DNA from: Symbiodinium natans | Taxonomy: Eukaryota > Sar > Dinophyceae > Suessiales > Symbiodiniaceae | Direction of reading: 5' to 3' | DNA length: 64,000 nucleotides | Assembly: GCA_905221605.1 (NCBI GenBank) | Contig: CAJNDS010002501.1 | Coordinates: forward strand, 113,501-177,500 | Shown: positions 8,920-32,586 of the stretch, piece after piece | Layout of the letters: the number at the start of each line of letters is the position of its first letter | Position numbering within the stretch: the first letter of the stretch is position 1 | The notes under the pieces: model-generated | What the model saw: only the letters and a program-made list of their open reading frames with translations | What the model was told of the DNA's origin: nothing | Database searches by the model: none | Made by a program: the position numbers and the translations under genes

Positions 8920-9677
8920 AGTTAGTGGATACCATTTCCATTTTCATTTGGCACCACCCGATGCCCCCCCCCCCCCACGGCCAAACACCAATTTTCAATC
9001 ATTTTTACACCTCATTTTTTCAATCCGCATACCAATTACAGTAAAAATCATTGAAATCTTCCTAGAAAAATTCAACCAGCATACCAACGCAAAAATCTTC
9101 ATTTTTTCAAAATTTTACCTCATTTTTGACCAAAATGAAAGCGCTAACCACTTTCACCAAAAACATTAATTTCGCATTTTCTACAAGCATACCAAAACCA
9201 TATTTTCACCTCAAAAATGTCAATTTTTACCCCTACATTTTTGCTACTCATCCGTTTCATATACTAAACCAGTCAAAGTATTTTCAACAATTTTTGAACT
9301 ATTTTGAAAGCACCTAAACATTTCACCCAAAACTTCACTCAATAATCCAAACTCAGATATTAAAAATGAAAATGGAAGTGGTCTTCTCTAATGATATATC
9401 GCAAAAAACAAATTATTTTCTCATTTCAACACAGACCTTTTTCAACAAGCATAACAACAACATTTTTCACTTTCAAACACTTCAATTTCAACCCCGTAAG
9501 TTTTGCTACTCCTTCGTTTCAACCATTAACCCACAAGATGAAACCACCAGAAGACCCACACCAACACCCCCATAGAAAAAACCCATATTCCCAACCCGAA
9601 AACCCTAACCCTTGAAAATGGAAATGGTATTCTCTAATAAAATAACAATAATAGGAATAAGGTTTGGGGATAAGGTA
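8920..9677 (+). repeat. Left terminal inverted repeat (~758 bp)
   Basis: Reverse complement of 31833-32586 with few differences, mainly C-run length near 8961-8977. Its outer end starts AGTTAGTGGATACCATTTCC and its inner end is near TAAGGTA at 9671-9677. Inside it a motif close to ATGAAAATGGAAATGGT plus TCTCTAAT occurs three times: inverted at the outer tip (8920-8947), direct at 9365-9395 and direct at 9613-9640. Short frames here are rich in Phe/Asn/Thr because of the AT-rich composition and are not called as genes. Confidence 0.95.
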
Positions 9678-10133
9678 GTAACCAAAAGCGCAAAAACATT
9701 CGTGTAATTTCGCCTGTTCCCCTTTAGGTGCTGTATCTAATCTAAATTAGACTGTTCACCTAGTTGGGGGGTTGCTGTTCACCTAGTCGGGTGGTTGCTG
9801 TTCACCTGTTCCCCTTTTTCGCTTCCCGCCACCTAAATAAGGGATTTTTAGCTCATTTTTGACCACCCAAAACCCCAACTCGGGCCTCCAAATCCCAGTT
9901 TTAGGAACACCAAACAGCCAATTTTAGGAACACCATAAAGAAGCAGGTTACTGAATTTTGGGGTTTAGGATGGCTACAAACATAACATTATATGTAATTA
10001 ATAATGTTATGGTTGTTAAATTATAGCGAAAACACATACTCTACATACTCCATAATTTCTTCGGTTGTTGTATTGTAATAACCCCTCCAACCTACCAGCC
10101 AAAAATCAAAACATTCGCGTATTATTTCCTTAA
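9678..10133. other. Subterminal non-coding region with short repeats and a hairpin
   Basis: A ~23-bp unit CTGTTCACCTAGTYGGGKGG occurs in tandem at 9752-9774 and 9775-9797, with a third partial copy at 9798. TTTTAGGAACACCA occurs twice (about 9899-9912 and 9920-9934). A hairpin with a 10-11 bp stem (ATAACATTAT, 9982-9991, with ATAATGTTAT, 10001-10010) lies just past the end of the minus-strand GIY-YIG gene and could act in termination. No gene seen. Confidence 0.7.
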
Positions 10134-10871
10134 CTATAACGTCTGTAAATGCTTCAGAGACAGCCTATGTCGAGCTAAATTATCCCTGCTTATATAACAA
10201 CCACATTCACATAACACGCGTTGGGTTTTTCGTGCTCTAATTTTTTCTTGGTTCATTAACCTATATTGTTTGTTTGTTTCCTTGAGTTTTTCTTGGTTCT
10301 GCTCACGCCACAGTTTGTTTTGCTCACTAATGGCTTGTTTATTTTTCTCTTTGTATAGCTTGTCGCTTTCGGCCTTCTCTCGTTTGTGGCTTTCTCTGTA
10401 TGCCTTCTCTTTTTCTTTAAGCTTTTCCGCATTCTGCTGTCTGTATTTCTTGGCATACTCTAGTCTTTGTTCTTGTGTGTCTTTGTAGTATTCCTTTTGC
10501 TTCCTCCCCGCAATTAGTTTATTTACGCATTCAGCGTTCTTAATATGGTATCCTTCTCTTGCTGTCAGTTCTTCCTTGGATATACAGGGGTAGTTTTCAA
10601 TCAGTTCAATTTTACAATTTTGCATTCCGAACTCGTCAAAAATGTCAAAGCAAGATGTCCGTTGGGCATCATTATTAAAATAGCGTTTGTAAGAGTTGCG
10701 GTGCTTGGCCATCCTGTTGGAAAGCGTTTCGGTCGTTGAGCCTATATAACATTTGTTGTATCCCTTGTCTATTAGCTTGTAGATTTTTCCTTTCGTGTAT
10801 TTGCTTTCTTCCATAAATGTTATTGCGAATATCTCTTTAATGGTCTTTTCTTCACCATTTAACACCTTCAT
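10134..10871 (-). CDS. GIY-YIG endonuclease-like protein 1 with C-terminal zinc motif
   Basis: A 245-residue intact protein. The GIY-YIG nuclease core begins GKIYKLID and continues to CYIGSTT, with the expected downstream Arg (RMAKHR) and a Glu in the helix before NAECVN. A long Lys/Glu/Gln-rich linker follows, ending in a zinc-binding motif, C-x-C-G with two His (CECGCYISRDNLARHR). The ATG at 10871 overlaps the integrase stop (ATGA). A second ATG at 10814 puts the domain 8 residues from the N-terminus, like the other two paralogues, and may be the true start. Predicted to cut DNA; such proteins can act in homing, repair or recombination. Paralogues lie at 25236 and 28675. Confidence 0.85.
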   Translation of the reverse strand: MKVLNGEEKTIKEIFAITFMEESKYTKGKIYKLIDKGYNKCYIGSTTETLSNRMAKHRNSYKRYFNNDAQRTSCFDIFDEFGMQNCKIELIENYPCISKEELTAREGYHIKNAECVNKLIAGRKQKEYYKDTQEQRLEYAKKYRQQNAEKLKEKEKAYRESHKREKAESDKLYKEKNKQAISEQNKLWREQNQEKLKETNKQYRLMNQEKIRARKTQRVLCECGCYISRDNLARHRLSLKHLQTL

Positions 10872-11197
10872 ACCTTCAACAGCTCAAAACGAAGATAGGA
10901 ACGACTTGGGATACCTTCAACTCTGTAATAATTTTGACCTAATTTGTTTTCAATGCTTTCTATGGTATAAATATTTTGGCTGTAATTTCCCACTCTTTCT
11001 TTTTCATTTGGTTTTCGCTTCCTAAATATCTTAACCTCGTCTCCTACATTTAGTTCAGGATAAACGCGGTTCTTTTTGCCCTTCATCGTTAAATTTAGTT
11101 TCACTTTGAATTGGTTACTGGGTTTTCGGGCTTCTTTCGGCGTAAATCCCGTGGCCGAGTGCTTCATTTGATTATTATAGGTTAATAATATTTCTAA

Positions 11198-11200
11198 TAT
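11198..11200. repeat. Target-site duplication TAT of the nested transposon, left
   Basis: TAT here and at 13055-13057 flanks the inverted ends of the nested element. Removing the element plus one TAT restores the integrase frame. Confidence 0.8.
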
Positions 11201-11259
11201 ATCAAGGGGGTTTGTAAAAATGACTTTGAACTTTTTTCGACTTTGGGTTTCTGGTTGGG
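11201..11259 (+). repeat. Left TIR of nested transposon
   Basis: Matches the reverse complement of 12996-13054 at nearly every position; mismatches are at about the 9th base and after position 46. Confidence 0.85.
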
Positions 11260-30927: not shown

Positions 30928-30949
30928 AAAAAACTCCTTGGAGTTTTTT
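30928..30949. terminator. Hairpin 1, perfect 10-bp stem
   Basis: AAAAAACTCC, loop TT, GGAGTTTTTT. The T-run on the 3' side (and A-run on the 5' side) would work as a terminator-like signal on either strand. Confidence 0.4.
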
Positions 30950-30985
30950 ACACTAATGGGTTTTTCGTGAAAAACCCATCAGTGT
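30950..30985. other. Hairpin 2, 16-bp stem
   Basis: ACACTAATGGGTTTTT pairs with AAAAACCCATCAGTGT around a CGTG loop, with a single A-C mismatch. It starts directly after hairpin 1. Confidence 0.5.
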
Positions 30986-31195
30986 ATAGTGCCATAAGCC
31001 CCAGACATCATTCTTTCATCCCCTCGTGTTTCACTACACCATAAGCGTATCATAAGAAATACAGTAATGGTTAATTAGTTTGGAGTTTGCGCCCTATTGC
31101 CCATTGCTCGTTCAAATGTTCTAATATTAATTAAAATATTAGAAGATTTTTTCAGTCTAGCCATGTATAAAGACTAGACTTTTTCATATATTAAG

Positions 31196-31777
31196 ATGGA
31201 AAAGCGAGTGTGTAAATCGTGCTGTGCTACAAAGGATGACGAAGAGTTTGACGGCTTTAAGACTTGTAATAGGTGCCGTGAAGCGAAAAGAAAATGCTAC
31301 AAGAAAAACCAGAAGGAATATAACCAAGCGAGAAGAGAAGAGAGAGCAAAGGGGAGCCAATTATGCGAAGAATGCGGGCATAAAATAAAAAACGAAAACT
31401 GGGATGCCCACTTCCATTATGCGTTACACCCGAACTCGGAACTAAATATATTGATGAAAGGTTATTTAACAAAGCTAGGTAATTTAAGGAAAGAAGGCAA
31501 ACTAAACGACGAATTACAAGCAGAGATTAAGGCGGAATACGAAAAGCAGAAAAGGGAAATACGCAAACGATTAAACGAACAATTTCCTAACAAGTTTCAA
31601 GACGAGCCAGAAAAAGAAGAACAACCTGAAGACGAGAAACCTAAACCTGATATTAACAAACTATTCAATCATGTTAATCAGTTACTGATGAACGATGAAT
31701 TTTTAGAAGATTATTTTATGATATTTCAAAAGCATAAGGATAGAGTAACTATTGAAATTCCGATTGATAATTCTTAA
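31196..31777 (+). CDS. Zinc-finger hypothetical protein
   Basis: A 193-residue intact protein, ATG at 31196. Two zinc-binding modules: a Cys4-type ribbon (CKSCCATK, then CNRCREAKRKC) at residues 6-36 and a C2H2-like motif (CEECGHKI, then HFHYALH) at about 58-78. The rest is acidic and helical (EKEEQPEDEKPK). The first module resembles short host or viral zinc ribbons that bind nucleic acid. It is the last gene before the right TIR; perhaps a regulator, which is inference. Confidence 0.65.
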   Translation: MEKRVCKSCCATKDDEEFDGFKTCNRCREAKRKCYKKNQKEYNQARREERAKGSQLCEECGHKIKNENWDAHFHYALHPNSELNILMKGYLTKLGNLRKEGKLNDELQAEIKAEYEKQKREIRKRLNEQFPNKFQDEPEKEEQPEDEKPKPDINKLFNHVNQLLMNDEFLEDYFMIFQKHKDRVTIEIPIDNS

Positions 31778-31832
31778 GTATAATGTAGTTATAATCCTTA
31801 AGTTGCTATAGATTATAACTATATTATGATTT

Positions 31833-32586
31833 TACCTTATCCCTAAACCTTATTCCTATTATTGTTATTTTATTAGAGAATACCATTTCCATTTTCAAGG
31901 GTTAGGGATTTCGGGTTGGGAATATGGGTTTTTCTATGGGGGTGTTGGTGTGGGTCTTCTGGTGGTTTCATCTTGTGGGTTAATGGTTGAAACGAAGGAG
32001 TAGCAAAACTTACGGGGTTGAAATTGAAGTGTTTGAAAGTGAAAAATGTTGTTGTTATGCTTGTTGAAAAAGGTCTGTGTTGAAATGAGAAAATAATTTG
32101 TTTTTTGCGATATATCATTAGAGAAGACCACTTCCATTTTCATTTTTAATATCTGAGTTTGGATTATTGAGTGAAGTTTTGGGTGAAATGTTTAGGTGCT
32201 TTCAAAATAGTTCAAAAATTGTTGAAAATACTTTGACTGGTTTAGTATATGAAACGAATGAGTAGCAAAAATGTAGGGGTAAAAATTGACATTTTTGAGG
32301 TGAAAATATGGTTTTGGTATGCTTGTAGAAAATGCGAAATTAATGTTTTTGGTGAAAGTGGTTAGTGCTTTCATTTTGGTCAAAAATGAGGTAAAATTTT
32401 GAAAAAATGAAGATTTTTGCGTTGGTATGCTGGTTGAATTTTTCTAGGAAGATTTCAATGATTTTTACTGTAATTGGTATGCGGATTGAAAAAATGAGGT
32501 GTAAAAATGATTGAAAAATTGGTGTTTGGGCGTGGGGGGGGGCATCGGGTGGTGCCAAATGAAAATGGAAATGGTATCCACTAACT
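31833..32586 (-). repeat. Right terminal inverted repeat (~754 bp)
   Basis: Reverse complement of 8920-9677. Its inner edge is near TACCTTA at 31833 and its outer end is CCACTAACT at 32586. The C/G-run (32534-32542) is shorter than in the left copy. The high identity of the two TIRs is expected if the insertion is recent or if gene conversion acts on them. Confidence 0.95.

Follow-up and report, generated by a model that had tools for sequence, protein, structure and literature searches.

The stretch of Symbiodinium natans DNA analyzed here (64,000 nucleotides of contig CAJNDS010002501.1; hereafter, the window) contains, at positions 8920-32586, an AT-rich endogenous element of 23,667 bp, which in our judgment is very probably an endogenous Polinton-like virus (PLV) of the Tlr1 type, present as a partly decayed copy. 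The element is delimited by terminal inverted repeats (TIRs) together with a flanking direct repeat. The left TIR covers 758 bp (8920..9677, plus strand) and the right TIR covers 754 bp (31833..32586, minus strand), and the 5-bp target site duplication (TSD) CAAAG lies directly outside the left end (8915..8919) and the right end (32587..32591). A preliminary description of this DNA had proposed an integrated PLV retaining both ends, with TIRs of ~755 bp and a 5-bp CAAAG duplication; this proposal is well supported by the TIRs, by the TSD, and by the contrast in open reading frames (ORFs) between the element and its flanks. Its size and its TIRs place the element among the TIR-bounded elements of 15-40 kb that characterize PLVs, and the length of the TSD fits, since duplications of 5-6 bp have been reported for both mavirus and Maverick-Polintons (PMC8547959).

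Pairwise alignment of the two TIR arms, with the left arm taken from 8921 so that the outermost base pair is not included, gave 747 identical bases among 752 aligned. The other five are mismatches, and each of the three indel events falls in a homopolymer. The resulting divergence is 0.66% (0.33-0.40% per copy), and we infer that it arose after insertion. Further inward, each TIR holds inverted copies of its own 28-nt tip, one at 9364-9391 and another, of the first 25 nt, at 9613-9637. These copies match at 24/28 and 23/28 positions, with a maximum of 20 among 500 shuffles, and the best tip match elsewhere was 19 in the element interior and 17 in the flanks; the inverted copies may be extra binding sites for the integrase. 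The left TIR (8920-9677) also contains a 95-nt direct repeat (73%, spacing 262). A search of the window for further copies of the TIR, or of an insert described below, returned only short, weak stretches (best E of 0.011 and 0.008).

Base composition and ORF content mark a sharp boundary of the element. Computed in 1-kb segments, those straddling an element end being omitted, the GC fraction is 0.29-0.40 within the element, except for 0.51-0.53 across the insert at 11-13 kb, and 0.46-0.62 outside it. Stop-to-stop frames of at least 190 amino acids, counted in all six frames, number 17 in the element and zero in either the left or the right flank. As the preliminary description had noted, the surroundings are rich in telomere repeats: the flanks (1-8914 and 32592-64000) carry 159 telomere-like arrays, each with two or more perfect copies of CCCTAAA/TTTAGGG, which lie 84 in one orientation and 75 in the other and cover 12.6% of the left flank and 15.1% of the right flank. 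TTTAGGG is reported as the telomere repeat of plants, Fugacium, and other dinoflagellates (PMC11453091). Cymbomonas, with a GC of 51.4%, was also compared, but its simple repeats are reported at 0.7% and so do not match the 13-15% of arrays seen here. The 23.7 kb of the element, by contrast with the 40.3 kb of flank, contain no array, and single heptamers occur at 0.17 per kb in the element versus 17.7 and 22.3 per kb in the flanks. Given that there are no arrays inside and 159 outside, the insertion probably postdates most of the arrays. That telomere repeats served as the insertion target is unsupported, because 21% of the flanks (8,528 of 40,334 positions) is no further than 8 bp from an array anyway. 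A search with the joined empty site returned 62 rows across the junction, none extending more than 37 bases to its left; most of these rows are owed to the CCCTAAA stretch on its right side, and they have no evidential value.

Turning to the virion genes, the A32-type DNA packaging ATPase that was expected for a PLV, and that the preliminary description had named, is encoded at 29301..30074 on the minus strand (Pox_A32, E=6.9e-12; PHROG terminase large subunit, 3.9e-15). A PDB search with this ATPase gave irrelevant weak matches only, and tblastn against phages gave no match for either the ATPase or the first part of the major capsid protein (MCP). An S74 fibre-like protein of 810 amino acids (25981..28413, plus strand) matches Peptidase_S74, the chaperone of endosialidase, at its end (E=3.6e-9), and it also matches 6f45, a long tail fibre chain (E=0.0092). 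The MCP gene is read in two parts that share one frame, the first (23563..24624, plus strand) ending at an in-frame TAA and the second (24670..25176, plus strand) continuing beyond it. For the first part, the PDB search returned one match, over residues 21-133, to MCPv4, a chain of 8h2i (E=0.041) that we take to be a chlorovirus capsid chain; the second part alone gave no meaningful match in Pfam or PDB. A putative penton or minor capsid protein (21005..21865, minus strand) owes its assignment solely to its size and position.

A Pfam scan that covered 24 element ORFs or pieces (the element has 41 ATG ORFs of at least 70 amino acids, overlapping and antisense ones included) found no capsid protease, of the Ulp1 type or any other, at E<=1, although distant proteases could escape it. 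The only "protease" names seen were Peptidase_S74, which is the fibre chaperone, and a weak match to Mgr1 on GIY-YIG endonuclease 3 (0.0072). The element in this respect resembles PLVs, which are reported to be normally without a capsid protease (PMC4642659), and not Polintons or Mavericks, which are recognized by one of the Ulp1 type. The preliminary description had listed the MCP, penton, and ATPase as a full morphogenesis set. As an intact set, this does not hold: the MCP keeps one weak PDB match but its gene is interrupted by a stop, the penton is backed by no search, and no capsid protease was recognized.

The replication genes comprise a 776-aa ORF (14124..16454, plus strand), taken as the N-terminal part of a replication protein, and a 467-aa ORF (16568..17971, plus strand) for an SF1 helicase with the motifs AGGGKS, VFDEIY, and CHSAQG. 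Read by eye, the 776-aa ORF shows NECWF from residue 255 and NNHIY from residue 349, a probable Cys/His pair of a vOTU domain, as well as a PolB-like motif A from residue 552 and motif B from residue 667, which point to a probable, putative pPolB palm. The polymerase frame is lost just ahead of motif C, and VKTDAF, at the position of motif C, lies in the open frame upstream of the first ATG of the helicase. The helicase matched PHROG exonuclease V (2.6e-6), RecD2 (1.4e-4) and RecD (1.7e-4), the latter two far under their cut-offs, and, weakly, Pfam AAA_30 (E=0.016), with no sensible match in PDB. By tblastn against phages, it matched 139 records, all below 60% identity (best E 2e-3); these distant matches, among those listed, are mostly annotated as Dda-like or DNA helicases. 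The C-terminus of the helicase carries a Cys/His-rich stretch that we take to be HNH-like, with no support from Pfam.

The 776-aa ORF gave nothing meaningful in Pfam, PHROGs, NCBIfam, or PDB; in particular, no PolB or exonuclease profile matched it, such as would be expected for the exonuclease-bearing pPolB of Polintons. Tlr1-type replicases are described as a TP-like region and vOTU, followed by an exonuclease-less palm and then S1H, and Tlr1-like proteins are reported to have the first Asp of motif C (DTD) changed and to carry GIY-YIG or HNH at their end (PMC11071308). VKTDAF is in line with this reported change of the first Asp (PMC11071308), and the vOTU, palm, and S1H motifs are ordered correctly in the element, yet they fall in two frames and no profile matched the vOTU or the palm. 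Of the polymerase-helicase in the preliminary description, the helicase is supported by PHROG and RecD, whereas the polymerase is recognized by motifs only and its frame is broken.

The RVE integrase gene, on the minus strand, is in pieces: an N-terminal piece (13398..13640) in a frame that differs from that of the core, the core (13055..13372; Pfam rve, E=9.1e-5), and a C-terminal piece (10868..11167) in the same frame as the core, placed by frame and position. The core, scanned as the ORF 12788-13372 whose end falls within the insert, scored 23.1 bits against a Pfam cut-off of 32.6; it had no meaningful PDB match and no phage match by tblastn, and neither of the other two pieces matched Pfam. 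This sub-cut-off core together with the 5-bp TSD is what a Tlr1-type PLV should show, and both fit the earlier proposal that the element integrated by its own RVE integrase; the rve core of that integrase is present, but the gene is divided by an insert and by a frame change, the latter in a T-rich run. The insert, which had been overlooked, measures 1,854 bp (11201..13054) and separates the core from the C-terminal part, with both sides sharing one frame. It has 60-nt TIRs that are 93.3% identical in the best local alignment, a 3-bp duplication TAT (11198-11200 and 13055-13057), 209-bp tandem repeats at 12150-12780, and internal inverted repeats, and it is GC-rich, resembling host DNA. We infer that it is a small TIR element of non-autonomous appearance that split the integrase after the PLV had inserted.

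The element also carries three GIY-YIG-type genes, GIY1 (10134..10871, minus strand; with a C-terminal Cys/His motif), GIY2 (25236..25955, plus strand), and GIY3 (28675..29268, minus strand). GIY3 matches Pfam GIY-YIG above the cut-off (E=4.2e-6), and GIY1 and GIY2, which have no Pfam GIY-YIG match of their own, are connected to this family by BLASTP among the window proteins (GIY1-GIY2, 33% identity, E=1.9e-18; GIY1-GIY3, 23%, E=5.7e-9). The product of 21908..22876 (plus strand) is likely a lipase, as suggested by GHSLG from residue 219 and a weak match to Pfam Lipase_3 (E=0.089); PLVs are reported to carry lipases often, that of PgVV being a Lipase_3 match (PMC4642659). The remaining ORFs are annotated without a function. 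On the minus strand, these are a small ORF at 13693..14007, 18005..18871, 18893..19936 (a possible virion protein, with TCTAA 23 nt upstream), 19973..20308 (TCTAA 17 nt upstream), 20334..20912 (a possible zinc ribbon, Pfam E=0.044, weak), and 22899..23345; on the plus strand, they are 30278..30673 (TCTAA 14 nt upstream) and 31196..31777, whose N-terminal half is Cys/His-rich. GC at third codon positions is 0.39-0.43 in GIY1, the polymerase, and the helicase versus 0.20-0.37 in the other 15 of 18 listed ORFs, and this contrast between 10134-17971 and 18005-31777 hints at modules of different origin. No tRNA and no Rfam match was found, and 8 of the 10 flank ORFs of at least 100 amino acids gave no match in Pfam. 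A GC-rich tandem repeat of 32-33 bp with overlapping open frames lies at 42182-42652, also with no Pfam match.

In this assembly, therefore, three genes are interrupted, namely, those of the integrase, the polymerase, and the MCP, which the preliminary description did not remark upon when it called the element complete-length; the element is complete in length, but these three genes read as broken. For the MCP, the interruption is one in-frame TAA, beyond which the frame reads on. An alternative code in which TAA encodes Gln is unlikely, given that 17 of the 18 listed ORFs end in TAA and one in TAG (a tally that includes three broken-gene pieces, the two of the MCP and that of the polymerase). 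An intron, considered because GT precedes the stop, was set aside by eye, the frame continuing past this single stop. At the divergence of the TIRs, unselected sequence would be expected to carry 2.6-3.2 nonsense changes in 16,830 coding bases, and we observed one; hence, the decay is no more than the age of the TIRs allows.

These features suggest the following course of events. The element would descend from a linear, protein-primed double-stranded DNA virus, with a replicase made of a TP/vOTU region, an exonuclease-less pPolB palm, and an SF1 helicase, and with an MCP, a penton, and an S74 fibre forming a virion that the A32 ATPase would fill. Insertion into the chromosome by its own RVE integrase would have produced the 5-bp duplication, after which the TIRs would have diverged by 0.66% and the integrase, polymerase, and MCP would have been damaged. 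This copy is probably unable to move or to make particles alone, barring help in trans or lesions that are assembly errors. Several observations count against this account. The MCP match is weak (E=0.041), the rve score of the integrase core lies under the Pfam cut-off, and no profile matched pPolB or vOTU. The penton found no support in Pfam, PHROGs, NCBIfam, or PDB (best PHROG 0.025, function unknown), and single-sequence AlphaFold models of MCP part 1 and of the penton failed, with mean pLDDT values of 29.2 and 31.7, respectively, too low to use. Scans of viral and genome contigs, which may lack records from the genome of the window itself or from a very close one, gave no confirmed relative and hence no tree; pattern-matched stretches in the viral-contig scans failed tblastn, as did 20 in a genome-contig scan. 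Finally, the frame changes and the MCP stop may be assembly errors. Gene by gene, support is firm for the ATPase, one GIY-YIG nuclease, and the S74 fibre, fair for the rve core and the SF1 helicase, weak for the MCP, and absent for the penton.

The last of these points leads to an alternative that is rather unlikely, in which, save for the integrase insert, the element is an intact and possibly still infectious provirus, with frame changes and an MCP stop that assembly errors have introduced. The frame change of the integrase in a T-rich run, the three TIR indels in homopolymers, and the fact that the remaining annotated long genes are open all speak for it, and there is a published precedent: Bellas et al. 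caution that stops of this kind may be produced by the assembly, and they report an element of this sort whose stop codons disappeared upon error correction (PMC10120064). However, the MCP lesion is a stop within an otherwise continuing frame, with no frame change, and the insert by itself splits the integrase and is not explicable as a small assembly error. Bellas et al. also report a retrotransposon embedded in a PLV (PMC10120064). A far more drastic error, the joining of a free viral contig to host repeats, is extremely improbable: the flanks are highly repetitive, as such a chimera would favor, but an exact 5-bp duplication directly outside two near-identical TIRs is not expected from it.

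The same ends could be taken to indicate a Polinton (Maverick) or a mavirus-like virophage instead of a PLV, since the RVE integrase, the 5-bp TSD, and the long TIR are all compatible with one, as is the 5'-AG tip, which we take as a Polinton- or mavirus-like sign. Nevertheless, the failure to find a capsid protease in the Pfam scan, the position of the SF1 helicase downstream of the polymerase, and the presence of S74 fibre and GIY-YIG genes, which PLVs also carry, make this assignment quite improbable. Altogether, we conclude that the element works like a Tlr1-type PLV and most likely is one, with formal membership unproven for the MCP and the penton because no relative was retrieved.

We note a possible regulatory signal upstream of the virion genes. 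Among 19 ORFs, 7 have TCTAA in the 30 nt ahead of them, namely, those of the MCP, the putative penton, the ATPase, the fibre, and three ORFs without an assigned function, and the motif starts 14-23 nt before their start codons; it precedes none of the polymerase, the integrase, and the three GIY-YIG genes, and the reverse control TTAGA precedes 1 of 19 ORFs. The P value for TCTAA, a motif picked after looking, is 0.0115 for 30 nt and 0.002 for 40 nt, whereas TCTA itself is not significant (P of 0.50 and 0.056, respectively), and an unguided test of all 5-mers gives family-wise values of 0.90, 0.52, and 0.31 at 30, 40, and 50 nt. The contrast between four of four virion genes (the unproven penton included) and zero of five replication, integration, and GIY genes gives a Fisher value of 0.008, likewise after looking, and omits 10 of the 19 ORFs, 3 with TCTAA and 7 without. 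TCTA is reported to serve mavirus as its promoter motif and CroV as its late motif (PMC8547959), and to be the late motif of ChlorV as well (PMC13196603), and AAAAATTGA is reported as the early motif of mimivirus-like giant viruses (PMC13196603). AAAAATTGA occurs at 9220 and 32281, once per TIR and nowhere else in the element. With these weak statistics, the promoter interpretation of TCTAA is a lead only. The broader scenario, in which the element is what remains of a giant-virus-dependent PLV whose virion genes were run by a giant virus, with a role in host defence and a late insertion dated by the telomere-like repeats, is unlikely as it stands.

If the promoter lead holds, it would tie such elements to giant viruses. 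Otherwise, the element joins an already crowded group, as one survey of 462 protist genomes reports more than 35,000 endogenous hits to capsid genes of PLVs, virophages, and related elements (PMC10120064). Its contribution is a further RVE-integrase PLV with clear bounds and a Tlr1-like replicase; it illustrates one route of decay, in which a nested TIR element disables the integrase, and the array-free element among 159 outside arrays provides a simple relative date.

Among known systems, Polintons and Mavericks share with the element an RVE integrase, TIRs, and a TSD but differ from it in that no protease or exonuclease domain was recognized here. The PLV of Oxyrrhis marina, reported at about 25 kb with TIRs of 232-858 bp, shares low GC, a probable pPolB and an SF1 helicase, GIY-YIG, and fragmented genes, and it differs in that its helicase precedes the polymerase, its exonuclease is kept, its recombinase is of the tyrosine type, and no TSD is described (PMC12721341). 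The cryptophyte PLVs of the RVE-bearing clusters C2-C4 agree in size, GC drop, TIRs, TSDs, rve, S1H, S74, and GIY-YIG: those of R. lacustris are reported to average 22.2 kb, and cryptophyte PLVs to show a drop in GC by 14-28 points, TSDs some 4-6 bp long, rve integrases in C2-C4, S1H helicases, stand-alone GIY-YIG genes, and S74 fibres, as well as retrotransposon-like elements nested inside them that can interrupt genes, the integrase among them (PMC12220804). In that account, they are described without lipase genes (PMC12220804), in contrast to the probable lipase of this element. Compared with the Tlr1 type, the replicase here lies in two frames, there are three separate GIY-YIG-type genes, and a probable lipase and an S74 fibre are present. 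On the basis of published text and motifs, with no alignment, the element shares with Tlr1 of Tetrahymena and the pPolB-S1H PLVs an RVE integrase, a packaging ATPase, and putative capsid genes (PMC11071308, PMC4642659), and with the Tlr1 type also a probable replicase without the first Asp of motif C and an association with GIY-YIG/HNH (PMC11071308).

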